Shown here: piece by piece, positions 16,780 to 55,367 of the stretch | Layout: every line of letters starts with the position of its first letter | Position numbering within the stretch: position 1 is the first letter of the stretch | Program-made: the position numbers and the translations under genes | From: Limnochorda sp. LNt | Lineage (GTDB): Bacteria; Bacillota; Limnochordia; Limnochordales; Geochordaceae | Assembly: GCF_035593265.1 (NCBI RefSeq) | Contig: NZ_CP141614.1 | Span: forward strand, 2,356,001-2,420,000 | Direction: 5' to 3' | DNA length: 64,000 bases | The notes under the pieces: generated by a model | Database searches by the model: none | Told to the model about the DNA's origin: nothing | What the model saw: the letters and a program-made list of their open reading frames with translations, nothing else

Positions 16780-17052
16780 GTGGCCGACGGCTCGTTCCGG
16801 CGCGTGTTTCATGACGAGGAGCACCACCGGGAGGAGTTCCTCGACCGCCAGCTGGAGGTGGGTTGGGAGGAGGACCCGGCTGACCGGGCGCTGGAGCCGG
16901 AGCGGTCCACATCCCTCGACCCGCTGGGCGAGGCGGGCGACGAGGCCGGCCCGGGCCTGCGCCCGTGGCGCCGTCACCGGGCCGCGTCGTCGACCCGGCG
17001 CAGCCCGGCCAGGACCGTCTCCGTCATGCGGCGCAACCGCACCGGCTCGTAG
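16780..17052 (+). CDS. Small acidic hypothetical protein
   Basis: 90 codons from a GTG preceded by GGGGGCGGAG. The first 65 residues are charged and acidic (FHDEEHHREEFLDRQLEVGW, then WEEDPADRALEPE), not like random translation. The last 25 codons overlap the 3' end of the converging minus-strand gene and look less natural. No family is recognised. It has its own candidate promoter and is one of the few plus-strand genes in the first 35 kb. Confidence 0.45.
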   Translation: MADGSFRRVFHDEEHHREEFLDRQLEVGWEEDPADRALEPERSTSLDPLGEAGDEAGPGLRPWRRHRAASSTRRSPARTVSVMRRNRTGS

Positions 17053-18683
17053 AGGAAGGCCGGATACTCCCGGTGCAGCGAGGCCTGCCTCTCGGCTTCG
17101 GCCAGCACGGCCTGCCGGAGGCGGGCCTCGAGCGTCTTGCGGACGGGCTCGAGCAGGGCGTAGAGCCGCTCGTTGACCGCCTCGATGCGCCGGGTCAGCT
17201 CACGGCGCGGCGCCCCCGGCCGCTCGATCTCGGCGACCAGCCTCTGCTTCTCCTGGGCGAGCCGCAGCGCCTCCCCCTCGGCCTTTCCGTCGCCCCCCAG
17301 CAGCCCCACGAAGCGCTGCGGGTTGAATCGCAGATCCCGCAGCTGCCGGCGCAGGGCGGCCGCATCGACCTCCGGAGAGCGGAGGCTCAACCCCAGCGGA
17401 AGCGAGGCGGAGGCCACGACGTAGCGGGGTGGCCGCACGCCGAAGAAGCGCTCCACCACCCGGTCCGTGACGCGGTCGTAGCGCGCTCCTCCGATGCCGT
17501 GGACGAAGAGGTCGGCCACCAGCAACCGCACGAACAGGGTCAGCGCCACGGCCCTCGGGCGGATGGCCAGGCCCTCCTGCTCCAGGGCAGCCGCCAGCCG
17601 GTCGGGCGACCCGGCGGGCAGCCGCGTCACGGGGCCGTCCGCCGTCGAGAGCAGGATCCCGTCGCCCTGGGGCTCGACGTGCAGCGCCCGCCGCCGGACG
17701 CCCGGCGTCAACAGCCAAAACGGCAGCTCCACCCGGCTCCCCTGCACCGCCAGGTCGGGGAAGGGGTTGGCCCGGGATCGGATCCGGTGGCGGCGCCGGT
17801 ACTCGGCCAGGGTCTCGTTGTGGACGGCGGCGAAGCGGGCCGCCGCGAGGGCGACGTGGGCGAAGAAGAGGCGGAAGGGTCGGGTACGGGCCAGCTCGTC
17901 CATGGGCACTTCCAGGTAACAGGCGCCTTCACCCAGCGCCTGCGCCTCCCACCGGTGGCGCAACGCGGTCAGCCACTCCGCCAGGTGCCCGGCCCGGCCG
18001 ATAGCGGGGCCGGCCGCCACCGCCTGCAGCCGGGCGAGGCGAGCGACGAGGGGCGCTCCCTCGGGCCCCAGGCTCTCCAGCGCTGCCGTGGCCCGCTGGC
18101 AGAAGGCCTCCCACCGCTCCGCCCCGGGCGGGGGCGCCTGGGAGAGGGGCCGGCCGTACCCCACCGCGCAGAGCGCGACGCGCTCGATCGAGAGCAGTCC
18201 GTCGCGTCGCGACGGGAAGGGCGCGCTGACCTCGACGGCCGTGTCGTAGTCGACCACCACGTTGATGGCGACCGCGCCGGGGTCCTGCGCGGCCAGGTCA
18301 GCCACCAGCAGGGTCTTGACGAGGATGCCGGGGTGAGCCAACAGCGGCTGGTGTCCCGTCACCAGCAGGTGACGGGGTGTCCCGTCAGGTCCCTCCCACA
18401 GGGCGAAGCGTCGCGCGAAGGCGCGACCGATGGAGAACGCGGCCTCACGGGCGGCCCGCCGCACCTCGGCGGCGGGCTCCCCTCCGATCTCGAAGGCGAG
18501 CAGGCCGGCATCGTCGTCGAACTGGCGGATCTGGGCCGCCAGGGACGCCCCCTCGGGTGCCACCAGCACCTGGCCCGGCCCGGGTACCGCCCAGTCCGTC
18601 TCGTTGGCGGCCGCGATGCAGTCTGCCTGCGTCAACGCGCCATACCCCCGCAACCTCCACGCTACGGCGGCCCGTTGGCTCAC
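16974..18683 (-). CDS. Uncharacterised 569-aa protein (GHQPxLxHPG family, possibly BshC-like)
   Basis: 569 aa, soluble. Notable motifs are HLLVTGHQPLLAHPGILVKT (near residue 110), AINVVVDYDTAVEV, a LFVRLLVADLFVHGIGGARY segment near residue 400 and a Glu/Arg-rich C-terminal coiled coil. I recall proteins with the GHQPxLxHPG and HGIGGARYD motifs as uncharacterised, notably in planctomycetes. The length and C-terminal coiled coil also recall BshC, the cysteine-adding enzyme of bacillithiol synthesis (about 540 aa). Its 4-nt overlap with a BshB1-like deacetylase gene makes a thiol-synthesis role attractive, but this is inference. Confidence 0.5.
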   Translation of the reverse strand: MSQRAAVAWRLRGYGALTQADCIAAANETDWAVPGPGQVLVAPEGASLAAQIRQFDDDAGLLAFEIGGEPAAEVRRAAREAAFSIGRAFARRFALWEGPDGTPRHLLVTGHQPLLAHPGILVKTLLVADLAAQDPGAVAINVVVDYDTAVEVSAPFPSRRDGLLSIERVALCAVGYGRPLSQAPPPGAERWEAFCQRATAALESLGPEGAPLVARLARLQAVAAGPAIGRAGHLAEWLTALRHRWEAQALGEGACYLEVPMDELARTRPFRLFFAHVALAAARFAAVHNETLAEYRRRHRIRSRANPFPDLAVQGSRVELPFWLLTPGVRRRALHVEPQGDGILLSTADGPVTRLPAGSPDRLAAALEQEGLAIRPRAVALTLFVRLLVADLFVHGIGGARYDRVTDRVVERFFGVRPPRYVVASASLPLGLSLRSPEVDAAALRRQLRDLRFNPQRFVGLLGGDGKAEGEALRLAQEKQRLVAEIERPGAPRRELTRRIEAVNERLYALLEPVRKTLEARLRQAVLAEAERQASLHREYPAFLYEPVRLRRMTETVLAGLRRVDDAAR

Positions 18684-19429
18684 CAGAGGAGTCGGGTGAG
18701 GTCGGCCACTCCGATGGGCTCCCGCGAGAGGAGCGGCTCGCCGTACGCGACGCCGATCAGCTGACCGTAGTACCGATCCCGGCCCTCCACCCGGTCCGGG
18801 ACGTCCCGGCCCGCCGGGTTGACCTCGAACTGGCTGCGATACGCCCGGATGGCGGCTCTCTTGCGCTCGTACGAGCCCGACACGTCAACCACGGCGGCCA
18901 CCGGCGGGTGGAGCCTCAGGTGGGAGGCCAGGAAGTAGAGGGTGCGCGGCACCAGGTAGGGCTCCCCCGGCAGCTCCGTCTTGGTCAGCTTGCCGTAGAA
19001 TCGCCCTGCGTCGGCCAGCGCCGAGGCGGCCCAGTGGTCGGGGTGCGCGTCCTCCCAGTAGTGGGCCAGCAGGAGCCGGGGACGCAGCAGCCGCAAGATG
19101 GCCGCCACCAGCCGGCGATGATCCACCGTGTCGAAGAGATACCGGTTGGGCAGGTGGAGCGTCAGCCTCGCGGCCAGCCCCAGCTCCCGGGCCGCCTCGT
19201 GGCTCTCCTGGCGACGGGTCTCCGGCGTCCCGTAGGGCGTCGGCTCGCCGTCGGTGAGGTCGACGACGGCCACCCGTGCCCCCTGCCGGGCCAGACCGGC
19301 CAGCATGCCGCCCACGGCCAGCTCCACGTCGTCGGGATGGGCCCCCACGGCCAGCACGTCGACCGGGGCCTCGAGCCCGGTGCCGTACCGGCTGACGATG
19401 GCACGCTCGACCCACGATGCGCCTTGCAT
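18680..19429 (-). CDS. bshB1: PIG-L/BshB1-like GlcNAc deacetylase
   Basis: 249 aa from ATG 19429; a GTG at 19444 overlapping the upstream stop would add 5 residues. The zinc and catalytic motif is VDVLAVGAHPDDVELAVGG, with a second metal histidine in LAHYWEDAHPDHWAA; LTDGEPTPYGTPETRRQES and a GEPLLSREPIGV-type end are BshB1-like. BshB1 deacetylates GlcNAc-malate to GlcN-malate in bacillithiol synthesis; other PIG-L enzymes act on other N-acetyl sugars. It lies between a GT2 gene and the possible BshC-like gene. No GT4-type BshA is in this window. Confidence 0.72.
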   Translation of the reverse strand: MQGASWVERAIVSRYGTGLEAPVDVLAVGAHPDDVELAVGGMLAGLARQGARVAVVDLTDGEPTPYGTPETRRQESHEAARELGLAARLTLHLPNRYLFDTVDHRRLVAAILRLLRPRLLLAHYWEDAHPDHWAASALADAGRFYGKLTKTELPGEPYLVPRTLYFLASHLRLHPPVAAVVDVSGSYERKRAAIRAYRSQFEVNPAGRDVPDRVEGRDRYYGQLIGVAYGEPLLSREPIGVADLTRLLW

Positions 19430-19440
19430 CGGCGGACGAC

Positions 19441-20235
19441 TCACCCCTCGCAGGCGGCCGCGCCCAGCGCACGCTCTCGCCGGCACGCCTCGCCGCGCAG
19501 GGCCCGCCGCAGCACCTCCTCGTAGTAGCGGCGTCGCATGGCCGGCTCGTCCAGCCCGCCGCCGAAGCGGCGCTCGAAGTTGACCTTGTAGATGAGGGGG
19601 ACGGGGATCTCCACCACGCTCAGGCCGTGCCTCCAGGCCTCGATCCACACCTCCAGCGGCATGCCGTACCCCGGCTCGGTCAGGTGCAGCCGCTTGAGCG
19701 CCTCCACCTGGTAGCCCTTGAAGCCGCAGAAGGCGTCGGTGATCCCGAACCCGGTCAGCTCGTTGAGGCGGGCCGTCAGTTCGCGATTGATGGCGAGACG
19801 GTCGAGCGGGGGGCTCCCCTCCCCCTGCAGGGGCGCCAGGTAGCGGCTGCCCGAGACGATGTCCCAGCCCTCGTCGAGCCGCTCGAAGAAGGTGGGGATC
19901 CACTCGGGCTGGTGCTGCTCGTCGCAGTCGATGGTGACCACCTGGCGGTAGCCATGGCGGATGGCCCACGCGAAGGCGTCCGTCAGGGCCCGGCCGTAGC
20001 CCAGGTTGACCGGGTGCCGCAGGACCCGCACCGCCTCCAGCCGTGCCAGGATGCCGGGCGTCCCGTCGGTGGAGCCGTCGTCCACCACCAGCACGTCCGC
20101 CCTCGCCGCCGTCTCCAGGACACGCCGCAACACCCGCTCCGCCGAGCGCTCCTCGTTGAAGACGGGGATGGCGACCAGCCTATCCGCCACGGCCTCCCGC
20201 GTGCCCCCCACCCGCCGCGATCCGTCGTAGGTCAC
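19441..20235 (-). CDS. Family 2 glycosyltransferase (dolichyl-phosphate-sugar synthase type)
   Basis: 264 aa from GTG 20235, overlapping the barrel gene's stop by 4 nt (GTGA). The GT-A fold shows RLVAIPVFNEERSAERVL, VLVVDDGSTDGTPGIL, the metal-binding region VVTIDCDEQHQPEWIP, and VSGSRYLAP. There is no C-terminal membrane segment, so it acts at the cytoplasmic face or in the cytosol. It would transfer a sugar to a lipid phosphate or another acceptor. Tight coupling to locus A suggests glycosylation of the surface structure, but it may equally belong with the two downstream enzymes. Confidence 0.8.
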   Translation of the reverse strand: MTYDGSRRVGGTREAVADRLVAIPVFNEERSAERVLRRVLETAARADVLVVDDGSTDGTPGILARLEAVRVLRHPVNLGYGRALTDAFAWAIRHGYRQVVTIDCDEQHQPEWIPTFFERLDEGWDIVSGSRYLAPLQGEGSPPLDRLAINRELTARLNELTGFGITDAFCGFKGYQVEALKRLHLTEPGYGMPLEVWIEAWRHGLSVVEIPVPLIYKVNFERRFGGGLDEPAMRRRYYEEVLRRALRGEACRRERALGAAACEG

Positions 20236-23200
20236 GGGATATTGTAGCGATCCGCCTCGGGCGCCGTCCACCACCCCGAGAGCCGGACCACCCAGCCGGG
20301 CCGCCTGTCCAGCGCCAGGTCGGCGCCGGCCTGGGGCGCCTGCCCCCATGTGGCGGCCCGCCAGCCCAGCTCCAGGATGCCGCCGGTGTCGCCGGGCACC
20401 AGGAGGAAGAGGCCCGCGACGGCGGCGGCGCCCGTGGCCACGTCGAGCGCGGGGAGCGAGCCCCCGCCCGAGGGGACCTCCCGGGTCGCGAAGCCTTCCG
20501 CCTCGGCGAAGAGCCCGAAGGGCCCTGCCACGGCGCGACGCGCTCCCACGGACGCCTGCATCGTGTCGAGGCGGGCGCCTCGCTGCGGCTCCGGCACGCC
20601 TCGCCATCCGAGACGAGCGTAGAGGCCCGTCGTGCCGTCGGGCCCCGCCCGGCCACCGTCCCCGAGGCCCGCCCACCCCGAGAGCCGGGCCTCGCTCGCC
20701 CGGTCGCCCAGGCGGACCTCGCCGGAGACCGCCACGGGCCCTCTTTGCCACGCCCCCGCCAGTGTCAGCGTCTCCCCGGGCTCCTCCTCGCCCCAGCGCA
20801 GGGCCGCCGAGAGCCGGAGGTGGTCCGTGGCGGGCGCGGGGCGTGGGCGCAACCAGGCCTCGGCCTGCCAGCGGCCCGGCCTCCACCTCAAGAGGGCACG
20901 GCCGTAAAGCGCCTCCCAGGCGATGGTCGCCTCCTCCCACCTCAGGGAGCCCCGGGCCGCAGCAGCCTGGCTCGAGAGCCGCAGCGGCCCACCCGGCCTC
21001 AGCTCGCCCCGCAGGGAGAGTCGGGCCGCGTCGTCCGCCGGGAGCACCGACGCCCTCACCGCCGCCGAGCCCCCGCCGTCCCAGGCCCCCTCGAGCGCCA
21101 CCCAGCTCTCCCAGGGAGTCCCGGCGGCCAGGTGGGCGCCGAGCGCCCACAGGTCGAGTCCCGCCGCGGCCCGCAGGGGCCCCAGACGAAAGGAGGGCAG
21201 CGTCAAGCCCGCGGTGACGTACGGCGTCGCCCTCGGCCGGATGGCCGGGGAGTCGGGCCCCTCCGCGTCGACGACGACCCCTCCCACGCGCAGGGAGGCC
21301 ACCACCCCGCCCTCACCACCCGATGCGGGATGGGCCGCATGCCGGCCGGGGAGTCCGGCCTCCAGGCGTGCGTAGAGGTCCGAGGAGCGGCCCAGCCTCG
21401 CCCCGAGACCCCACCCTCTCGCCAGCGCGTGGTCGAGGCGGGTGCGCCACTCCAGTTCCCAGCGATCCTGGGCGGGCAGAGCCGGCCCGTCGCGTGAGCC
21501 CTCGCTCAGGCGGGCCGCCATGTCCGCGGCCAGGTGGCGGAGCCTCAGGCTCGTCCACCCGTCATCCGCCGCGACCCCCCAGCCGGCCTCGCCGGCTCCT
21601 TGCACCAGCTCGGCGCTCAGGCGCCACGCTCCCAGGCGACTCTCCCAGCCGGCCCCCCAGAGCGAGGGTGCGGCCGGCTCCTGGCGCGCCCCGGCCCAGA
21701 CCAGGCCCTCCTCCAGCGCGGCGCGAGCCACCGCGACCCAATCGGGTTGGGAACGCTCCCCGGTCGTCTTGTCGCTGCGCGACGCGACGACGGCCAGACC
21801 CCCTCGCTCCCAGCGCCAGGCCAGGCCGTGCTTCGGCCACGACGGGAGGGGGCCGAGGCTTAGCTCTTGGAGGGGAGGCGTCCCGCCCGACGGGAGGCGT
21901 CCCCCATCATCCCCTACCGCGCGGCGCAACCCCAGCGCGTCGAGGTCGCCGGCGGCCAGGAGGTGATGGCCGAGCCGGAGCTCGGCATGGGCGAGCGTCA
22001 CCCCATCGCCCGCCGCCGAGCCGGCCGCCCTCAACCCGAGCCCCGGTGCACGCGCTCGCAGCCCCATGCCTGCCCAACCCTCGACGGGTCCGCCCGGTGC
22101 CCAGACCAGCCGGCCCGCCGCATCGACCTCGACGGCACGCGCCAGGCCCGACGACGTCGCATTCGCCGGATCCCCGCGCAGGGTGACCGGCACCACCGCC
22201 CCCGGCTGCACCCGCACCACGACCGCCGGGCCCGCTCGCACCGGCTCCGACCCGCTGGCCGCACCCGGGTAGGCGCGCAGCACGTGCACCCCCTCGGCCA
22301 GCGCCATCGAGAAGTATCCGGCGGCGTCCACCTCGGCCCACGTGCCGTCCTCGGCCACGACCCACCACGGCTGCTCGGCGCCGCCCACCGACGGCCGCTG
22401 GAGCGTCCCCAGCACGAGTCCCCTGGGCTCACGCGCCTCGGGGTCGAGCTCGACAGCGGCCGAGACGGCAGGAGGGCGCCACTCCCCGCCGGGGGACCCG
22501 ATCCGGCAGGCGGCCTCCACCTGTACCGAGCGCAGTCCTGCGGCCAGCGGGGTCACCACCGCGTCCGCCTCCAGCACGGCGCGCCCCGGCCCGCCGGCCG
22601 GCCGGCGCCATACGAGCAGCGGCGGCCTCCAGGTGACGGCGTCACCGTCGCCCCCGGCGGCCGGCCGGATGCGCCACGAACCCGGCACCACCGCCAGCGC
22701 CGGGCCCAGGTCCACCTGCACCTCGGTGAAGCCCTCCACTCCCTGGCCGTGCAGCTCCAGGGTCACTTCGAGGCGGAGGCGGTCGCCCACGGCCACCCGC
22801 GGCTCGGCCCCGGCAGGGCGCACCTGCAGGCTCAGGGTAGCTGCGGGGGCCTGCGTCAGCCGCATCGAGACCGGCGTCGGCATCCCGGTGTCGGCCGTCA
22901 CCTGCACCTGCCGCGTCGCGGCCACGTACCCGTCGGCCTGCGCCTCGAGCCGGTAGGCCCCGGGCGTCAGCCCGCCGAAGCCGGCGCGCCCGTCGTCGCC
23001 CGTCGAGGCGGTGCGACCGAAGGCCTCGCCCTCGGCTGCCAGCCGTACCGTGGCCCCTGCCAGGGGCCGCCCGTCCGGCTCGCCCGAGACGGTCACTTGC
23101 AGCGCGCCCAGCGCACCGGCCTCCACCACCTGCAGGGCGCCGCCGGCGATGATGGGGCCGTAGATACTCGCCGAGATGCCGTAGCAGTAGGCGCCGGGCT

Positions 23201-23912
23201 GCATGACGGGGACGCCGGGATCGCCAGGGCTCAGGCGCAGGAGGTTCCAACCCGCCTGCACGGGGTAAGGGTAGCCGTACCCCACCGCCATCGACGTGGA
23301 GCAAGGTCCGCCGCCGCCCGGCCAGAACTGGACGAAGACGTGGCCAGGCTCGTCCCGGTAGACGTAGAGGTCGAGCGTCCGGCCCGAGCCGAGGGGATAG
23401 GGGTCGGGCCAGACCAGGGCCGGGGAGTGATCGACGGATGACGGGGAGAGGGTGTAGGCTATGTCGACCTCGTAGGGGCCCGCCACCGCCGCGTCCTCCC
23501 ACCGCGGCCCGAACCGCCAGACCACGTCGCCCAGCCATCCTCCGCCGGCCTGATGGACCGCCACGACCCCCGTCCGCATCGGGTGAAAGGTGAGAGGATC
23601 GGTCGGGTGCCGCTGAAAGGCCCACTCCAGCCGGTCGAGGGGAATGCGGGCATCACCGGGCCCGGTCAGATGGGGCTGCTGCGCCTCCATGGTGAGCGCC
23701 ACCTGCTGGGCGGAGGGATGGGTCCCGATGGCGACGACCCCCACCACCGCCTTCTCGCCGGGCCCGACGGCGACGCTCGGGGCGAGCCCCGCCACCCCGT
23801 CGGCTCCGATCCACGGCTCCCACGCCCCGGCGGCTCCCGGTGCGGTGATCACCCCTATCAGGGCCACCACGACCATCCCGACTCCACCGCCGGCCCGCCG
23901 TGCACCCCTCAT
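20232..23912 (-). CDS. Locus A: giant secreted outer-membrane barrel protein (usher-like)
   Basis: 1226 aa from ATG 23912, which overlaps the PapD-like gene stop by 4 nt (ATGA). A signal peptide (residues 1-30, cleavage after GAAGA) is followed by a beta-rich N-terminal domain with two cysteines (about 31-270), a carboxypeptidase-regulatory/CnaB-like domain (about 270-345; PLAGATVRLAAEGEAFGRTA, GLTPGAYRLEAQADGYVA), Ig-like segments to about 600, then roughly 550 residues of alternating-polarity strands with Trp/Arg/Gly turns (for example GLYARLGWRGVPEPQRG) typical of a large outer-membrane barrel. Layout and coupling resemble a chaperone-usher operon, but I see no diagnostic usher motif. Confidence 0.6.
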   Translation of the reverse strand: MRGARRAGGGVGMVVVALIGVITAPGAAGAWEPWIGADGVAGLAPSVAVGPGEKAVVGVVAIGTHPSAQQVALTMEAQQPHLTGPGDARIPLDRLEWAFQRHPTDPLTFHPMRTGVVAVHQAGGGWLGDVVWRFGPRWEDAAVAGPYEVDIAYTLSPSSVDHSPALVWPDPYPLGSGRTLDLYVYRDEPGHVFVQFWPGGGGPCSTSMAVGYGYPYPVQAGWNLLRLSPGDPGVPVMQPGAYCYGISASIYGPIIAGGALQVVEAGALGALQVTVSGEPDGRPLAGATVRLAAEGEAFGRTASTGDDGRAGFGGLTPGAYRLEAQADGYVAATRQVQVTADTGMPTPVSMRLTQAPAATLSLQVRPAGAEPRVAVGDRLRLEVTLELHGQGVEGFTEVQVDLGPALAVVPGSWRIRPAAGGDGDAVTWRPPLLVWRRPAGGPGRAVLEADAVVTPLAAGLRSVQVEAACRIGSPGGEWRPPAVSAAVELDPEAREPRGLVLGTLQRPSVGGAEQPWWVVAEDGTWAEVDAAGYFSMALAEGVHVLRAYPGAASGSEPVRAGPAVVVRVQPGAVVPVTLRGDPANATSSGLARAVEVDAAGRLVWAPGGPVEGWAGMGLRARAPGLGLRAAGSAAGDGVTLAHAELRLGHHLLAAGDLDALGLRRAVGDDGGRLPSGGTPPLQELSLGPLPSWPKHGLAWRWERGGLAVVASRSDKTTGERSQPDWVAVARAALEEGLVWAGARQEPAAPSLWGAGWESRLGAWRLSAELVQGAGEAGWGVAADDGWTSLRLRHLAADMAARLSEGSRDGPALPAQDRWELEWRTRLDHALARGWGLGARLGRSSDLYARLEAGLPGRHAAHPASGGEGGVVASLRVGGVVVDAEGPDSPAIRPRATPYVTAGLTLPSFRLGPLRAAAGLDLWALGAHLAAGTPWESWVALEGAWDGGGSAAVRASVLPADDAARLSLRGELRPGGPLRLSSQAAAARGSLRWEEATIAWEALYGRALLRWRPGRWQAEAWLRPRPAPATDHLRLSAALRWGEEEPGETLTLAGAWQRGPVAVSGEVRLGDRASEARLSGWAGLGDGGRAGPDGTTGLYARLGWRGVPEPQRGARLDTMQASVGARRAVAGPFGLFAEAEGFATREVPSGGGSLPALDVATGAAAVAGLFLLVPGDTGGILELGWRAATWGQAPQAGADLALDRRPGWVVRLSGWWTAPEADRYNIP

Positions 23913-25045
23913 GGAGCGGACCTCTCCCCCGGGTGGCTGGCAAGGGCCGCACCGAAGGTCACCTCCACGTCCTGCGCCGCGACGGGCCGGTCTCCGTCGA
24001 GCCAGACCACCTCCACCCGGTACGTCCCCGGCGGCAGGTGCGCCGGCCATGGCACCTCGACGCCCCCGACCTCCCCCGGTCCCACCTGCGCCCCCGAGAG
24101 GCGCTGCGAGGCCACCGGCTCGTCGTCTCTCGCGAACGTCACGGCCAGCTGGGGTCGCACCGTCACGGCGCCCCGGTTGTGCACGGAGGCCACCAGCGAA
24201 GGCGGTGACGCCTCGGACGACAGGGCGAGGCTCAGCCCCCCGCGTACCATGGCCACCTGGTAGGGGCCGATCACGTCGAAGCGCGCCACTTTGGGCACGG
24301 GGTCGGGCGACCCGTCCGGGTGCAGCCGTGCCTCGATGGTGTAGCGACCGGGCGGCAAGAGGGGCGGCTGCCAGCTCGCCCTCAGGAGCCGGCTGGCCCC
24401 CGGCAGCAGGCGCCCCGGCCCGAGCCAGAGACGCTGCCGGGTCTCGCCGTCCGGCCCCACGATCAGGGCCTCGACCCGTGCCATGGTGCCGACGGCCCCC
24501 GGATTGCGCACCCGCGCCACCACCTCGATGGGCTGCCCCGCGGCCTCCTGCTGCGCCCACACCCCCTCCAGCACCACGGGCGCGCTCGGCCAGGCCTCTG
24601 GTCCGTGCAGCAGGACCAGGACGCCCACCTTGAGCGTGCCGGTCAGGACCGGCGCCGAGATCAGGGCTGCGGCGTAGGCGCCCTCGTCGGGGCATCCCGT
24701 CACCTCCAGCCAGAGCTCGCGCCTCTCTCCCGGCGCGAGAGCAGCGTCCTCCCAGTCGGGACGCAGCAGTGCCCGGGCCGACGCCCGGGCCGCGGCATCG
24801 TCGAGGAAGACGGGGAAGCCCTCCAGGTCGTGGGTGAGCCCCACCACCTCCACCCGTGCCTGCACCGGCCCGTCGGCCACGTTGGTGACCTCCACCGGCC
24901 CGAGGCGAGCCGGGCAGCCGGGAGGGGCCTCCAGCACCAGGGGGCCGACCCGCAACGAAGCCAGGGCTCCATCCCCGGCCATCTGTGACGCCGCCAGGAG
25001 CACGCCCACCAGCACCCACCGATGCAGCCGTCCCGCCCGCTTCAT
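23909..25045 (-). CDS. Locus A: secreted PapD-like multi-Ig protein
   Basis: 378 aa from ATG 25045 (GAGGAGG upstream). The signal peptide ends near ASQMAGDGALA. The mature part is about three Ig-like beta-sandwich repeats: VEVTNVADGPVQARVEVVGL, PIEVVARVRNPGAVGTMARV and SLVASVHNRGAVTVRPQL, each with PPGRYTIEARL- or PPGTYRVEVVWL-type closing strands. This resembles periplasmic chaperones and DUF916-type proteins but is longer than PapD (about 230 aa, two domains). It lies between the subunit and barrel genes. It could be a periplasmic chaperone or an adaptor domain protein. Confidence 0.6.
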   Translation of the reverse strand: MKRAGRLHRWVLVGVLLAASQMAGDGALASLRVGPLVLEAPPGCPARLGPVEVTNVADGPVQARVEVVGLTHDLEGFPVFLDDAAARASARALLRPDWEDAALAPGERRELWLEVTGCPDEGAYAAALISAPVLTGTLKVGVLVLLHGPEAWPSAPVVLEGVWAQQEAAGQPIEVVARVRNPGAVGTMARVEALIVGPDGETRQRLWLGPGRLLPGASRLLRASWQPPLLPPGRYTIEARLHPDGSPDPVPKVARFDVIGPYQVAMVRGGLSLALSSEASPPSLVASVHNRGAVTVRPQLAVTFARDDEPVASQRLSGAQVGPGEVGGVEVPWPAHLPPGTYRVEVVWLDGDRPVAAQDVEVTFGAALASHPGERSAP

Positions 25046-25076
25046 CCGGGCCGCCTCCTCTCCGACGAGCCGGCTC

Positions 25077-25565
25077 TCAAAGGGGGGCGGCCAGCACCAG
25101 GTCGATGTCGGCGGCGTAGTCGCCGGGAGCATCGTCGTAGCTGGCCGTGTACTCGAAGGCGAACGTGATCGTGACGCCGGACTCGCCGGTGGGCTGGCCG
25201 GAGGCGACGTCCTGGAGCGACGCCTGGCCCACCGTCCCCTGCCGGCCGGATGCCTGCCACTGCACGAGGTTGACGAGTGGCGTCTCGCCGGGGAGGACCG
25301 GCCGACGATCGGCCGCCAGCCGGAGCACCCAGGGCGCGTTGGATCGGAGCTGCACGGAGAGCGACCCCTGCGCCCTCTCTCCGGGACGGGCCTGGAGCGT
25401 CACCTCCTGGCCCGACGGAAAGGTGATCTCGGCGGCCTCCTTGACCGTCACCCGGAGCCGCACCGTCGACGCGGACGCCGGCGATGGGACGACGGCTCCC
25501 AGGGACACCCCCAGCGACAGCAGGACGATGACGAAGCTTCGGGACCGACTCGACACGGGTCGCAC
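25077..25565 (-). CDS. Locus A: small secreted beta-sandwich subunit (pilin-like)
   Basis: 162 aa from GTG 25565, with GGGAGG 9 nt upstream. The signal peptide is residues 1-33 (VVPSPASAS). The mature 130 residues look like one all-beta domain, with LRVTVKEAAEITFPSGQEVT at the start and a final strand APGDYAADIDLVLAAPL. A C-terminal PG-x-Y-x3-I-x-L strand is a common feature of spore-coat-U/archaic pilin domains that are completed by strand exchange. No cysteines were seen. It is first in an operon with a PapD-like protein and a barrel, so an exported surface or fibre subunit is the best guess. Confidence 0.55.
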   Translation of the reverse strand: MRPVSSRSRSFVIVLLSLGVSLGAVVPSPASASTVRLRVTVKEAAEITFPSGQEVTLQARPGERAQGSLSVQLRSNAPWVLRLAADRRPVLPGETPLVNLVQWQASGRQGTVGQASLQDVASGQPTGESGVTITFAFEYTASYDDAPGDYAADIDLVLAAPL

Positions 25566-25772: not shown

Positions 25773-27014
25773 TCAGGTGCCCTCCTGCCAGCCGGCCAGA
25801 TAGCGCCGCTGCCGGTCGGTGAGGACGTCCAGGGTGACGCCCATGGCCTGCAGCTTGAGGCTCGCCACCTCGCGGTCGATGGCCTCGGGCACGGGATACA
25901 CCTGCGGCGCCAGGCCGGTGCCCGCCTCGCCCACCAGCCACGCCACCGAGAGGGCCTGGTTGGCGAAGCTCATGTCCATGACCTGGGCAGGGTGACCCTC
26001 GGCAGCGGCCAGGTTGACCAGCCGGCCCTCCCCGATCAGGCGCAGCCGCTTGCCGCCCGGCAGCTCGAACTCCTCCACGCCCGGTCTCACCTGCCGGCGT
26101 GCCCTCGCCAGGCGGGCCAGCGCCTCGACGTCGATCTCGACGTTGAAGTGGCCGGCGTTGGCCAGGATGGCGCCGTCCTTCATCCGCAGCAGGTGCTCCT
26201 CGCGGATGACCCCGGTGTTGCCCGTGGCGGTGACGAAGACGTCGCCCAGGGGCGCGGCCTCCAGCATGGGCATGCAGGCGAAGCCGTCCATGACGGCTTC
26301 GAGGGCCCGCAGCGGCTCCACCTCGGTGACGATGACCAGCGCGCCCATGCCACGGGCCCGCGCCGCGATCCCGCGGCCGCACCACCCGTAGCCGGCCACC
26401 ACCACCGTGCTGCCCGCCAGGAGCACGTTGGTGGCTCGCAGCAGCCCGTCCAGCGTCGACTGGCCGGTGCCGTAGCGGTTGTCGAACATGAACTTGGTGC
26501 GGGCGTCGTTGACGGCCACGACGGGATAGCGGAGCACCCCGTCTCGTGCCATGGCCCGCAGCCGCGTCACGCCCGTCGTCGTCTCCTCGGTGCCGCCCCG
26601 CACGCCGCCCAGCAACTCCTGCCGCTGGGTGTGCAGCGTGGTGACCAGGTCCGCCCCGTCGTCCATGGTGACGTGCGGGCCGTGCTCGAGGGCCTGGTGG
26701 ATGTGGCGGTAGTACTCGTCGGAGTCGACGCCCCGCCGGGCGAACGTCGGGATGTCGTAGACCTCGTTGAGGGCGGCCGTCACGTCGTCCTGAGTGGAGA
26801 GCGGATTGGAGGCACACAGCCTCACCTGCGCGCCCCCAGCCGCCAGCGTGCGCACCAGGTTGGCCGTCTCCGTCGTGACGTGCAGGCACGCCGAGATGCG
26901 CAACCCCTCGAGAGGGCGCTCGCGGCGCCAGCGCTCCCGGATCTGCCGCAACACCGGCATGAAGGAGTCGGCCCACTCGATGCGGGCCCGGCCCTTTTCC
27001 GCCAGCGCCGTCAT
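25773..27014 (-). CDS. ahcY: S-adenosyl-L-homocysteine hydrolase
   Basis: 413 aa from ATG 27014, overlapping the metK stop by 4 nt. Motifs: [40 protein letters not shown] (hinge and catalytic Lys/Asp region shortly before), NAD loop [20 protein letters not shown], and [20 protein letters not shown] with [10 protein letters not shown]. Length and lack of the eukaryotic insert match bacterial/archaeal short forms. It removes SAH, the product of methyl transfer, giving adenosine and homocysteine. It shares the metK transcript, so SAM should also regulate it through the riboswitch. Confidence 0.95.
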
Positions 27015-28336
27015 CGCCGCTCGTCCGTCTCGGAGGCCAGGGCTGCGGCCGCTTGGGCAGGCCCCTCTGCGTCGAGCCGCCGGCGCGCCTCCTGCCGCAG
27101 GGCATCGACCAGGTCGGTGCGCTCCCAGGGCAGATCCAGCTCCGGCCGCCCGAAGTGCCCGTAGGCGGCCAGCTGGCGGTAGATGGGTCGCCGCAGTCCG
27201 AAGCGCTCGATGAGCGCCGCCGGCCGCAGGTCGACGAGCCGGGCCACGAGGGACTCCAACACGGAATCGGGCAGCTTGCCCGTCCCGAAGGTCTCCACCA
27301 TCAGCGAGACGGGCCTGGCCATGCCGATGACGTAGGCCAGCTGCACCTCGCAGCGGTCGGCCAGCCCGGCCGCCACCAGGTTCTTGGCGATGTAGCGGGC
27401 GGCGTAACTGCCCGTGCGGTCCACCTTGGTCGGATCCTTGCCCGAGAAGGCGCCGCCCCCATGGCGCGCCATGCCCCCGTAGGTGTCGACGATCACCTTG
27501 CGGCCCGTCATGCCCGAGTCGCCCAGAGGCCCCCCGACCACGAAGCGCCCGGTGGGGTTGACGAAGATGCGGGTCGCAGGCGTCAGGTACTCGGCCGGGA
27601 TGACGTGGCGCACGACGTGGGTCTCGATGTCGGCCCGCAGCCGCTCCATGGGCACGTCGGGATCGTGCTGCGCCGAGACCACCACGCTGGTGACCGCCAC
27701 CGGCTCCTGCCCCTCGTAGGCGACGGTCACCTGGGTCTTGCCGTCGGGCCGCAGGTAGCCGAGAAGGCCGCTGCGCCGCACCTCGGCCAGCCGCCGCGCC
27801 AGCGCGTGCGCCAGCACGATGGGCAGGGGCATCAGCTCCGGGGTCTCCCTGGCGGCGTAGCCGAACATCAGCCCCTGGTCGCCCGCCCCGAGGATGTCGT
27901 AGGCGTCGGCGGGCCCATCCGGGCGGGACTGGGCCTCCAGCGAGCGGTCCACGCCCCGGGCGATGTCGGGCGACTGCTCGTCCAGGGCCACCAGCACCGC
28001 GCAGCCGTCCGCGTCCAGCCCGTACTCGGCCCGATCGTAGCCGATCTCCTTGAGCGTGCGTCGGGCGACCTTGGCCACGTCGACCCGGGCCGTGGTGGTG
28101 ATCTCCCCGAAGATCAGCACGAGCCCCGTCTTGGTGGCCACCTCGCAGGCCACGCGCGCATACGGGTCCTGCTGGTAGACGGCATCGAGGACCGCGTCGG
28201 CGATCTGGTCGCAGACCTTGTCGGGGTGGCCCTCGGTCACCGACTCCGACGTGAACTCCCACCGGCGCGCCGACTTGCCGGCTTGCGCTCGCGCGGCATC
28301 CTCGCGCTTGGGCCAGCCATCCCGGTGCATGGACAT
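27011..28336 (-). CDS. metK: S-adenosylmethionine synthetase
   Basis: 441 aa from ATG 28336. Motifs: [20 protein letters not shown], the signature [32 protein letters not shown] and [14 protein letters not shown]. About 25 residues precede the usual MetK start (the catalytic His motif begins near 35), so translation could begin slightly later, but no better start was seen. A C-terminal tail extends past the usual GHFGR region. It forms SAM from methionine and ATP. It is preceded by a strong sigma-A promoter and a SAM-I riboswitch, and is coupled to ahcY. Confidence 0.95.
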
Positions 28337-50758: not shown

Positions 50759-51304
50759 GTGTACAAGCGCGCGTGGTGGACGGGCGCCCTGCTGCTCCTG
50801 CTCGCGGCCCCGGCCGCGGCGGCCGCCAGTCAGAGCACCAACGCCAGTCAGAGCATCACCATCAACGTCCCTGCCATCAACTTCGTCAACGTGGCCGGTG
50901 GCCCCATCACCTTCGAGTTCGACCAGACCCACTGGCCCGGCGACCCCGAGATCGGCGGCGCCCTGTCCGACGTCTCGGAGGTCGCGAGCGGCACCGCCAC
51001 GGTCCTCTGGCTGACCAACGCCAGCCGGACCAGTCCCGTCAAGATCACCGTCGGCGTCAACGAGGCACCGCCGGAGTGGGTCAGCCTCTTCAAGGTTGAG
51101 CTGGCGTCGCCCAGCCTGCAGGCCGGCAGCGGCAGCTGCGGAGAGATCCCGAGCGGCGGCGTCCCGCTCACCACGTCGGCGCAGCCCCTGGTCACCGGCA
51201 TCCACAACAAGGTCTGCATCGCCGAGGCCACCTACTCGGTCGCCGTCGATCTGGACGGCTACGGCACCTACAGCCCCACCGTGACCTGGACCATCGGCCC
51301 CTGA
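50759..51304 (+). CDS. Locus B: secreted beta-sandwich subunit 1
   Basis: 181 aa from GTG 50759 (GGAGG 7 nt upstream); an in-frame ATG 7 codons earlier lacks a ribosome site. Signal peptide about 1-22 (LLLLLAAPAAAAA). The mature part begins SQSTNASQSITINVPAINFV and looks like one all-beta domain with two cysteines (SGSCGEIP, NKVCIAEA), probably a disulfide. It ends GYGTYSPTVTWTIGP, a strand like that of exported fibre subunits. It has no sequence identity visible by eye to the locus A subunit, but is placed identically. Confidence 0.55.
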   Translation: MYKRAWWTGALLLLLAAPAAAAASQSTNASQSITINVPAINFVNVAGGPITFEFDQTHWPGDPEIGGALSDVSEVASGTATVLWLTNASRTSPVKITVGVNEAPPEWVSLFKVELASPSLQAGSGSCGEIPSGGVPLTTSAQPLVTGIHNKVCIAEATYSVAVDLDGYGTYSPTVTWTIGP

Positions 51305-51329
51305 GGGGCCGGAGGCGGGTCCGGTCGTC

Positions 51330-51848
51330 GTGCGCGAGGTCGGGCTGCTGATGGCAGCCCTGGCGGTCTGGGGGTTGGCGGGCGTCTCCGCCGCGGCGGG
51401 CCCGGCTCCCGGCCCCCAGGTCGTCGTCTCCGGCGACTGGACCCTGACCGTCGAGGGTGTGGGGGTCCCGACCCTATCGGACCTGCCAGCCTTGCCGACC
51501 GACTGGGAGAGCCCGATGCCCGTCGCTCGAGCCACCATCCGCCGAGCGGGGGGCCGGTCGCCGGGATGGCAGGTGCTCATCCGGAGGGTCGACGGCCTGT
51601 GGCCGTCGGGGGTCACGCTCGAGGCCTGCCTGACCGACCAGGGACGGGGAGGTACGGTGCAGAGCCCCTACCGGTGCTCGGACCGTTCATTCGTCGAGGT
51701 GGGCACGCAAGACACGCTCTTCTTTTGGGGGTCCGGCAATCCGTCCGACGTCGGGATCGGGCTACGCCTGTCGGGGATCTCCGTCGACGTCCCGCCCGGC
51801 ATCTACATGACGGCGGTGGTGTACACCATTGTGGCGGGCTCGCCGTAG
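51330..51848 (+). CDS. Locus B: secreted beta-sandwich subunit 2
   Basis: 172 aa from GTG 51330; an ATG at 51351 is possible. The signal peptide spans about residues 1-23 (AALAVWGLAGVSAAAG). The mature domain is beta-rich with two cysteines (TLEACLTDQG and YRCSDRSF) and closes VDVPPGIYMTAVVYTIVAG, a PG-x-Y strand like that in spore-coat-U/Csu-type subunits. It overlaps the next gene by 20 nt. A second subunit or tip protein is plausible. Confidence 0.55.
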   Translation: MREVGLLMAALAVWGLAGVSAAAGPAPGPQVVVSGDWTLTVEGVGVPTLSDLPALPTDWESPMPVARATIRRAGGRSPGWQVLIRRVDGLWPSGVTLEACLTDQGRGGTVQSPYRCSDRSFVEVGTQDTLFFWGSGNPSDVGIGLRLSGISVDVPPGIYMTAVVYTIVAGSP

Positions 51849-52659
51849 TCCCTGGCCGTGGCTCGTTTTGCTGGTGGCGCTGGCCGCCACCGGCGAGGGC
51901 CGGGCTCAACCCCGGATCGGCCTCATGGGCGACCTGGTGCACGCCTACACGGTCCAGCCCGGTCAATCGGTCGAGGGGCTGGTGGTGCTGGCCAACCCCC
52001 AGGACCGGCCCCAGACGGTGCGGCTCTATCTGCAGGATTACCGCACCGACGACCAGGGACATCCCGTCTACGCCGAGCCGGGAAGCCACGCCCGCTCCAA
52101 CGCTCCATGGATCCGTCTCGGGCAGTCGACGGTGACCGTCCCGCCCGGCGAGCAGCTGGCCGTCGCCTACGCCATCCGCGTCCCTCCCGATGGCACCCTG
52201 ACGGGCACTTACTGGAGCGCGCTGATGGTGGAGCCCGGCGAGGCCGAGCCCGGGGCGGCCTCGCCGGCACCCGACGGCCCTCGGGTCAGCATCCGGCAGG
52301 TCTGGCGCTACGCCATCCACCTCGTCACCGACATCGACGGCCCGGGCGAGGCGCGCCTCGCCTTCGTGCGTCCCCGCCTGCTGGAGGATGCCGGTGGCCT
52401 GGCGCTCCAGGTCGACATGGTCAACGAGGGCGTGAGATGGCTGCGGCCGCAGGTCTGGCTCGAACTCTACGACCAGGAGGGCCGCCTGGCGACGCGCGTG
52501 GATGGGGCACCGGCCCACCTCTACCCGGGTGACGTGGCACGCCAGCGCCTCGAGCTGGGCTCGCTGCCCCCGGGCCCCTACGAGGTCCTCCTCGTCGCCG
52601 ACAACGGCGATGCCCATGTCTTCGCCGCTCACTACCGGTTCGTCGCGGGCTCCCACTGA
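51829..52659 (+). CDS. Locus B: secreted PapD-like chaperone/DUF916-type protein
   Basis: 276 aa. Signal peptide 1-26 (PWLVLLVALAATGEGRAQ). Then two Ig-like domains: YTVQPGQSVEGLVVLANPQD and TVRLYLQDYRTDDQGHPVYA followed by SNAPWIRLGQSTVTVPPGEQ and VPPDGTLTGTYWSALMV in the first, LQVDMVNEGVRWLRPQVWLE and SLPPGPYEVLLVADNGD in the second. Size and two-domain layout are those of pilus chaperones, and the first domain also resembles DUF916. It probably acts outside the inner membrane to escort or cap the two subunits encoded just upstream. The barrel gene follows directly. Confidence 0.65.
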   Translation: MWRARRSPWPWLVLLVALAATGEGRAQPRIGLMGDLVHAYTVQPGQSVEGLVVLANPQDRPQTVRLYLQDYRTDDQGHPVYAEPGSHARSNAPWIRLGQSTVTVPPGEQLAVAYAIRVPPDGTLTGTYWSALMVEPGEAEPGAASPAPDGPRVSIRQVWRYAIHLVTDIDGPGEARLAFVRPRLLEDAGGLALQVDMVNEGVRWLRPQVWLELYDQEGRLATRVDGAPAHLYPGDVARQRLELGSLPPGPYEVLLVADNGDAHVFAAHYRFVAGSH

Positions 52660-55367
52660 GTGCCCGTCGCTGCCCGGGCGCGGACGGGAGGCGGCCGGGG
52701 GCCTCTTGCTGGCAGCGCTGCTGGCCGTCTCGCTCCCGGTCAACCGCGGCGCGATGGCGGCGGCCCCCGTGGCCGATGGAGCGCCCTGGGCCGGCGGTCC
52801 TGGCGCGGCCGCTGACGGGTCCCGTCACGGCGGCGCCCGGCTCGCCGGTCGCGCTCCTCGCGCGTCTCGACAACGCGGGCTCCGTCCCGCTGGAGCTGAC
52901 GCCCAGCGCCGAGGCGCCGCCGGGCTGGGAGCTGATCGTGCCCCCTCCGGCCGTACAGCTGGCCCCTCGCACCTGGCGCACGGCGCTCATAGCGGTGCGG
53001 CCCGGCCCGTCGGTCCCGGCCGGCTCGTACGAGGTGGCCGTCACGTGGCGGGACGCGTTCCATGGGGTCTCGGCCCCGGTGCGCTTCCGGCTGACGGTGC
53101 CGGCCATCGGGAGGCTCGACGTGGCCCTCCTGGAGTCGCCGGCCTACGTCGTCGCCGAGGGTTATCGGCTCCGTTTCGTCGTGCGCAACGCCGGCAACCG
53201 GTTCGAACGGATTCACGTGCAGGCGAGCGACAACCTGGGGCTCGCGATCCGGGCCCAGCCAGGGGCGCTGCGGCTCGAGCCCGGGCAGTCGGCGGTCGTC
53301 ACGGTCTCGGTGGAGGTGCCCTCCGCGCTCGCTCGCACCGTCTACCACCGGGTCGTGCTGGCCGTCTCCAGCGAGGACGACCCCGAGGTCCGGGCCGCGG
53401 CTGCCGCGTCGGTGGAGGTGGTGGCACGCACGGCCCCGCTTCGAGCGGCCTACCGGTGGTTTCCCCTGACGGCCACCTGGACGAGCCACGCCACGCCCTC
53501 CGGCCCGGGCCTCGACTGGAGCCTGGTGGGGAGCGGCCGCCTCCGGGAGAGCGGTGACGGGACGCTGGCCGTCGACGTGTCGAGCCAGGCGGCCCGACTG
53601 ACCTACCGCCTCCCCTGGCTGACGGTGACGGCAGGCCGACAGCCGTTCTCGCTGTCGCCCCTCACCCGCTTCGACCGGCGAGGCGACGGCCTCGACGTGC
53701 GCGTCCGGGGTGGCCCCTGGGAGTCGGTGCTGCAGGCCATGGCGACCCCCCACGGCGTGGGACTGGGCGCCCGCCTCGCCTACGCCCTCGACGGCGTGCA
53801 CGACGCCTCGCTCCAGCTGGCCACCCTGCCGGAGACGGGGGAGGTGGTGGCGTCGGCCACCGCCCGGATCACCCCCTGGCAACGCCTCTACCTGGAGGCC
53901 GAGGCGGGCTGCACCGGTCGGCTCGAGACGGGGTGCACCTCCCACGCCCTGCGGACGGACGCCACGCTCGCCCTTGCCGGCTGGAGCCTCTCGGCCCGCT
54001 GGGACGACCGCGAGGCCGGGTACGCAGGCCGTCCGGCGGGCGAGCGCCAGCGCGAGGCCACCCTGGCGGTGGACCTCCCCGCGTCGTGGCGACTCTCGGG
54101 GACCGTGCGCGAAGCCCTCTCAGGGGCGCCGGGGAGCGGCACCGCCGCCACGACGGCCGAGCACCGACTGCGGCTCACGGGCCACAGGGGCGGCAGCACG
54201 GGATTGAGCCTCGAGCTCGGGCGTCGCGAACAGGCCAGCGAGGCCACCCACGTCCGGCAACGGATGGACGAGACGCGGCTCTACGTCAGCCACCACATGG
54301 ACGGGGGGGCGCTGGTGGGCCAGGAGATCGCCTACGCCCGATGGCAGGATCTGCCGGAGGGCCCCCGGTCCGCCTCCTGGGGCTACGGCCTGTCGGCCTA
54401 CCTGCCCGTCGGCGCGGCCAGCGTGGGACCGTTCCTCCGGGTGGAGCGCCCGGTGGAGGGAGAGCAGACGGGCGGCTTTCACCTCTCGGGGGGCGTGCAA
54501 TGGCGGTGGCGACTCCCCCGCTCCATCTCCATCGCAGTGACGACGGGGTGGAAGGGCGGCCCCACGGCCGAGCAGACCGCCTCCGTCGACCTGCGCTACC
54601 AGCCGCCGGCCGCAGCCGGGCTCCGGCTCACGCTGCAGGCCGCCCGCACGGACGTGTCTCCCTGGTCGTGGCAGCTCAAGGCCACCTACCAGGCACCCCT
54701 GGAGCTGCCGACGGGCAAGCGCCCCGACGTGGGGAGCCTGGAGGGTCGCGTCGTCGACGCCGATGGCGCCCCGGTGCCGGGAGTGGTGGTGCGCCTGGGC
54801 ACCCTCTCGGCCGTCACCGACCGCGACGGCCGCTTCGACTTCCCCGCCGTCAGCCCCGGCGTCTACTACCTGACGCTGCGCACCGGGCCCGTCGAGAAAG
54901 AGGTCTGGAGCCTGCCGCAGACACCCTGGCGGGTCGCGGTCGCGCCCCGCCAGCGCCTGCAGCAGACCTTCCGGCTGGTGACGCCCGCCCGCGTGTGGGG
55001 CCACGTGGAGGTGGCCCTCGACGGGAGGACGCCGGGGCGATCCGGGGATGCTCCCGCAACCGTCGTCGCCCCTCCCCCCGTCTCGGTCGGGGATCTGGTC
55101 GTCGAGGCCATCGGCGACTCGGGCACCCGCACGGTACTGACGGCGACGGACGGCAGCTTCTCGCTCGAGGGACTCCTGCCCGGGGTCTACCGTCTGCGAC
55201 TGCGACCCGAGGGGCTGCCCCCGCTCTACGTGCCGGACCCCGCCGAGGCGACCGTCACCCTGTCCCCCGGCGAGCGCCGGCACGTCATCCTCACCCTGCG
55301 GCCGGTCGTACGACGCATCGAGGTGTACGAGGGTGGCGAGCTGGTGCCCGAGGCACCCGCGCCCTAG
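52660..55367 (+). CDS. Locus B: giant outer-membrane barrel protein (usher-like), apparent frameshifts at 5' end
   Basis: An open 863-codon frame runs from 52776, but it lacks a signal peptide. A signal-like LLLAALLAVSLPVNRGAMAA lies in another frame. Removing one base at the G5 run 52697-52701 and one at the C5 run 52764-52768 gives one 901-aa protein starting at the GTG directly after the chaperone stop. After the signal come two NEW3/Ig-like domains (about 40-240), a long barrel-like region (about 245-690; GYGLSAYLPVGAASVGPFLR), then two carboxypeptidase-regulatory-like domains (VEGRVVDADGAPVPGVVVRL-like; SLEGLLPGVYRLRLRPEG) at the C-terminus. The order of domains differs from locus A. No classical usher motif was recognised. 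Confidence 0.6.

Follow-up and report, generated by a model that had tools for sequence, protein, structure and literature searches.

An operon conserved across Limnochordia encodes a small exported protein, a protein of predicted assembly-chaperone fold and a predicted outer-membrane barrel

A three-gene operon encoding a small exported, subunit-like protein (A), a PapD-like protein (B) and a large protein with a predicted barrel (C) was identified in the window (the whole stretch of 64,000 nucleotides that was analysed), and the evidence supports this gene order as real, conserved and linked to the outer membrane. The features of the operon and its surroundings are as follows.

25077..25565, minus strand: gene A, 162 amino acids, GTG start (25565), small exported beta-sandwich protein, opens the unit
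23909..25045, minus strand: gene B, 378 amino acids, ATG at 25045, exported, predicted PapD/WxLIP fold plus an extra third Ig-like domain
20232..23912, minus strand: gene C, 1226 amino acids, exported, N-terminal beta-sandwich domains followed by a predicted outer-membrane barrel
23909..23912, minus strand: ATGA overlap of 4 nt between the stop of B and the start of C
23439..23810, minus strand: A-like domain of C, residues about 35-158 (hhalign A6 vs A7)
22884..23102, minus strand: CarboxypepD_reg/prealbumin-like domain of C, residues 271-343
20235..21728, minus strand: predicted membrane barrel of C, residues about 729-1226, regularly spaced amphipathic strands
19441..20235, minus strand: GT2 glycosyltransferase, neighbour, overlaps the stop of C by GTGA
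18680..19429, minus strand: bacillithiol deacetylase BshB1, neighbour (TIGR04001, E 1.5e-58)
25773-27014, minus strand: ahcY, upstream context
27011-28336, minus strand: metK, upstream context, conserved together with ahcY (25773..28336)

An earlier note on this DNA had described three successive genes for exported proteins joined by a 4-nt ATGA junction, and both points were borne out: A, B and C lie in tandem with signal peptides (judged by eye) at all three N-termini, they recur together in many families and so do not form a chance arrangement, and the junction was found at 23912-23909 as well as in the relatives L009 and L010. The longest open reading frame of B begins at 25132 and overlaps A out of frame, and a promoter and terminator scan around the operon gave nothing useful. 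The glycosyltransferase and deacetylase, which had been described as coupled downstream, are both present, the former with its overlap with C, but they lie outside the conserved unit and are neighbours in the window's taxonomic order only; they were rejected as functional partners because the genes downstream of C differ in other families. A 569-amino-acid gene at 16974-18683, suspected from its position to be BshC, matched no Pfam or NCBIfam model.

When 73 Limnochordia genomes were searched with a B profile, B-like proteins were found in 53, a figure which is an upper bound for the operon since some of the matches are unrelated Ig proteins of 500-600 amino acids. Homologues of C along its full length were recovered from the genus and the family by a protein search, with the same order of A, B and C. 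Twenty loci were fetched around B-like matches and, judged where the contig extends far enough, most had the genes in the order A, B, C; one (L040) carried an operon of the type of the second operon in the window (see below). In 19 class loci metK preceded the operon on the same strand, sometimes with ahcY in between, and the operon stood behind metK in 20 of the 21 loci whose upstream sequence was long enough (window counted), the lone exception being L029, with just 1.7 kb of upstream sequence. The survey of Limnochordia genomes suggested in the earlier note was thereby carried out, and it found the order conserved class-wide, mostly behind metK.

The smallest version of the operon was seen in a pattern scan of named genomes that was aimed at one family and yielded ten loci (Bacillota MAGs), several of them from the same genomes as in the first locus set. 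In this version A, B and C have about 150, 225 and 680 amino acids, respectively, A and B overlap by 4 nt in 8/10 loci, and B and C do so in all ten. Its B consists of two Ig domains and has the size of a pilus chaperone; the third Ig-like domain of the window's B is missing from many relatives. Two local disruptions were observed: in L011:12244-13415 (G003) B is broken by stops or a frameshift relative to its near-identical neighbour in L010, and in L038:5031-6491 (G055) a transposase-like gene lies on the opposite strand between metK and A, with the three genes intact.

The structure of the window's B was modelled with AF2 (alignment of 12, pLDDT 75.5) and was predicted to be a two-domain boomerang, with all structural matches falling over model residues about 7-231. 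Among pilus chaperones the model matched CfaA (alternative; Z 13.6), CsuC (archaic; 12.9), FimC (classical; 12.6) and EcpB (11.5), and it also matched the Enterococcus faecium WxLIP structures 9i25 (bound to long WxL; Z 13.3) and 9i1y (free; Z 13.1). The modelled fold of B is therefore as close to WxLIP as to pilus chaperones, and the WxL/WxLIP systems are an alternative that the earlier note had not considered. Its description of B as a multi-Ig PapD-like protein holds at the level of the fold, where the model matches assembly chaperones, but not at the level of the family: PapD_N (PF00345) matched none of the 73 Limnochordia genomes while the E. coli control was positive, and one B-family member reached E 0.033, under the cut-off. 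Comparison of the B and FimC sequences gave no alignment, and that of B with EcpB gave one (probability 6 %) too weak to place the carboxylate anchor of CsuC (Arg89/Tyr196/Arg174). When solved structures were searched by sequence with profiles of A, B and C, the only matches were Ig-like and FlgD-like.

The window contains a second operon with a paralogous chaperone.

50759-55367, plus strand: locus B operon, two small exported proteins, a PapD/WxLIP-like chaperone and a large protein
51829..52659, plus strand: paralogous PapD/WxLIP-like chaperone of locus B (hhalign to the B family, E 8.7e-14)

The homology between this chaperone and B extends across both domains, and the chaperone also has a weak match to WxLIP_PGBD (E 5e-4). 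The large protein of locus B combines two Ig domains and a strand-rich region with a pair of CarboxypepD_reg domains at the C-terminus, which is the domain order of an usher, and has a weak match to CooC_C (E 0.013); full-length homologues were found in G005 and G010 only. At about 52660-52790 its signal peptide is in another frame than the rest of the open reading frame, an apparent frameshift that may be a mutation, a sequencing error or real.

Comparison of the A family with the N-terminal domain of C (hhalign A6 vs A7) gave a probability of 98 and E 1.3e-13, and with fewer sequences a probability of 81 and E 1e-5, the match falling on the body of A; by these profile comparisons C has an N-terminal domain homologous to A. 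The copy in C is shorter than protein A at the N-terminus by about 10-16 residues, as counted by hand with a crude signal-peptide rule; in A these form an alternating hydrophobic stretch which would fit a donor strand. The C-terminus of A bears a PG-x-Y strand. There are no cysteines in the mature A of the window, and A could not be aligned with EcpA.

The domain of C which had been called CnaB-like was confirmed as such: residues 271-343 match CarboxypepD_reg (PF13620) with E 3.6e-15, and SpaA/prealbumin-like is also above its cut-off. The long barrel-like region that had been noted was supported in two parts, in the window's own C by its 54 amphipathic strands, more than in shuffled sequences (mean 30.7, maximum 41), and in its fold by a model of a relative. 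The modelled protein is a distant homologue in L060, at the same position in another family (670 amino acids mature, 10 sequences), with a pLDDT of 73.5 that is poor at 376-430. Its model has N-terminal sandwich domains, then antiparallel strands from 358 to 657 and no domain after the barrel; a plug and an N-terminal usher domain could not be made out in it. Foldseek placed the PapC and FimD ushers at the top (E about 1e-5), with TM-scores of only 0.16-0.18, while VIA-align of residues 349-661 matched outer-membrane barrels with Z 11-12, namely porins, OprD-type channels, the FimD translocation domain (Z 11.8, 271 residues at 5.6 A), MtrB and LptD. As porins, MtrB and LptD score like FimD, a large barrel is supported but not specifically an usher. 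The modelled C and the window's C share weak sequence homology (E 0.001-0.003) in their N-terminal parts, and the barrel regions of the two families gave no alignment; the equation of the two proteins therefore rests on position, the A-like domain and the shared partners. Taken together, the relative's model and the strand pattern of the window's protein support the prediction that C ends in an outer-membrane beta-barrel. The soluble domains of C are probably periplasmic, because all of them precede the barrel. The earlier note was also right that there is no usher signature, PF00577 matching neither C nor any of the 73 Limnochordia genomes while the E. coli control was positive; no SLH domain was found in C and no peptidoglycan-binding domain was recognised. 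That note had named a structure without a membrane barrel, or folds with no relation to export or assembly, as evidence against its proposal; what was found instead was a predicted chaperone fold in B and a predicted barrel in the relative's C.

In a phylum sample of 299 genomes the A profile matched 31, of which 22 lie outside Limnochordia. Outside the class the complete set of A, B and C occurs in family f64 and in G073, in a different genomic context; families f76 and f86 have A and B without an adjacent C, and in G222 C is on another contig than A and B. C was not detected in the A-bearing genomes G318, G216, G183, G092 and G278 of the sample. The outer-membrane assembly protein family Omp85 was found in 71/73 Limnochordia genomes, and in 29 of the 31 A-bearing genomes versus 77/299 in the whole phylum sample, an association with a hypergeometric P of about 2e-17 that is uncorrected for relatedness and hence inflated. 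In G092 and G278, the two A-bearing genomes that lack Omp85, A is retained along with a B-like protein and C has no match; the loci are L077:3840-5841 and L078:3767-5821. In L077, B is extended by a probable membrane helix, a stretch as in WxLIP, and by a DivIVA-like coiled coil. A hydropathy scan alone did not separate B proteins with a membrane helix from those without. In G079, also outside the class, L083:2076-8338 contains several subunit-like genes and a PapD-like gene, along with a 922-amino-acid strand-rich protein with two C-terminal SdrD_B domains, a layout that is even more usher-like.

The operon may encode an outer-membrane assembly system that works like chaperone-usher or WxL/WxLIP systems, a reading to which slightly less than even likelihood is given. 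In such a system the first domain of B would lend a beta-strand, in the periplasm, to a fold of A that would be incomplete and to the A-like domain of C; B would keep A soluble and pass it on to C at the outer membrane, where the first A would dock on the periplasmic A-like domain of C and the barrel would anchor, and possibly export, an A polymer or an A-C complex at the cell surface. The proposal of a distinct diderm-Firmicute secretion or surface-fibre system gains a conserved order, a predicted chaperone fold and a link to the outer membrane, while secretion through C or fibre formation by A is presumed; the prospect that A leaves the cell through C as through an usher falls a little short of evenly balanced. 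The comparison with chaperone-usher systems drawn in the earlier note stands for order and fold, and is weakened by the absence of the usher family from all 73 genomes, by the lack of domains behind the barrel of C, by the subunit copy at its N-terminus and by WxL/WxLIP being equally close to B in fold.

It is possible, though not probable, that the operon instead encodes an envelope scaffold or tether rather than an exporter, with the barrel of C in the membrane and its A-like domain staying periplasmic; B might, with the same tentative standing, be the link between A and C, perhaps at the peptidoglycan, in the way that has been proposed for WxLIP. The WxL cluster follows the same logic of a small protein, a two-Ig binder and a large protein that repeats the domain of the small one (PMC10599100), B matches WxLIP as well as it does pilus chaperones, the soluble domains of C all lie ahead of the barrel on the probably periplasmic side, and A and B persist without C in the two Omp85-negative genomes; these points have to be weighed against the lack of a recognised peptidoglycan-binding domain, a barrel that is large for a simple anchor, and a class without the WxL domain. 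It is improbable that C is a true usher, A a pilin and the whole a very divergent chaperone-usher member operating by donor-strand exchange: gene order, chaperone fold, the usher barrels at the top of the Foldseek matches, and the alternating hydrophobic strand and PG-x-Y strand at the two ends of A would suit it, but PF00577 and PF00345 match 0/73 genomes with a positive E. coli control, no domain follows the barrel in the relative's model and no plug was recognised, C begins with a subunit-like domain, and the window's mature A has no cysteine. That the genes are co-located by descent only, C being an ordinary multidomain outer-membrane protein and A and B an unrelated pair, is very improbable, as the separate contig of C in G222 and the lone A-B pairs of f76 and f86 are set against an A-like domain within C, coupled overlaps and class-wide co-inheritance.

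Returning to the outer-membrane assembly system, it might represent a lineage of its own for assembling fibres or complexes in diderm Firmicutes and their relatives, in which the subunit-like acceptor domain of the barrel protein seeds assembly at the base, though this is rather unlikely. If so, the chaperone would be common to pilus systems and Gram-positive WxLIP, and the operon could show a monoderm WxL-type pair arising from a diderm system upon loss of the outer membrane. Through this class-wide operon, linked to metK and with its pilus-chaperone fold, the same logic of assembly would reach into a deep Firmicute lineage, in which no chaperone-usher family member was found (Pfam models, 73 Limnochordia genomes), and pilus chaperones would be connected with WxLIP. 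The operon would also offer a concrete gene set for studying the fate of envelope complexes after the loss of the Firmicute outer membrane.

A limited search of open papers on chaperone-usher systems in diderm Firmicutes found no description of this operon, and it was compared with three groups of known systems. Like the archaic and alternative chaperone-usher systems Csu, Ecp and CFA/I, it has the order subunit, chaperone, outer-membrane protein, a chaperone fold (B) and a large predicted barrel (C), and A has an N-terminal alternating strand and a C-terminal PG-x-Y strand. Unlike them, it has no usher or PapD_N family match and a single small subunit gene, and in C the barrel is C-terminal with all soluble domains ahead of it and an N-terminal domain that is a copy of the subunit. 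Pilin domains of the archaic chaperone-usher systems have conserved cysteines (PMC4654587), in contrast to the window's mature A.

The WxL cluster of Gram-positives comprises a small WxL protein, WxLIP (DUF916-DUF3324) and a large WxL protein, and WxLIP has been proposed to link the small and large proteins at the Gram-positive wall (PMC10599100). Like this cluster, the operon consists of one small protein, one two-Ig binder and one large protein with the domain of the small one, and the B model matches the WxLIP structures 9i25 and 9i1y (Z about 13). It differs in that C carries its A-like domain at the N-terminus and is itself a predicted membrane barrel, and in that the B proteins of Limnochordia showed no recognisable C-terminal membrane helix. 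None of the 73 Limnochordia genomes has a WxL domain (PF13731; Lactococcus control positive) and none has WxLIP (PF06030) above the cut-off, with six below it, including the locus-B chaperone of the window. In the Thermotoga maritima control, from another lineage that has an outer sheath, PF06030 WxLIP_PGBD was above the cut-off and marks a WxLIP-like protein.

OmpM/SlpA proteins tether the outer membrane in diderm Firmicutes and in Deinococcus (PMC10628300, PMC9388160); like them, C is a predicted outer-membrane barrel with N-terminal, probably periplasmic domains in Terrabacteria, and unlike them it has no SLH domain that could be found, and has a chaperone-like partner and a subunit. As there is no usher, PapD_N, WxL or above-cut-off WxLIP match, the operon is filed in neither the chaperone-usher nor the WxL family; on fold, gene order and domain sharing, the best reading is that it works like the systems of both.
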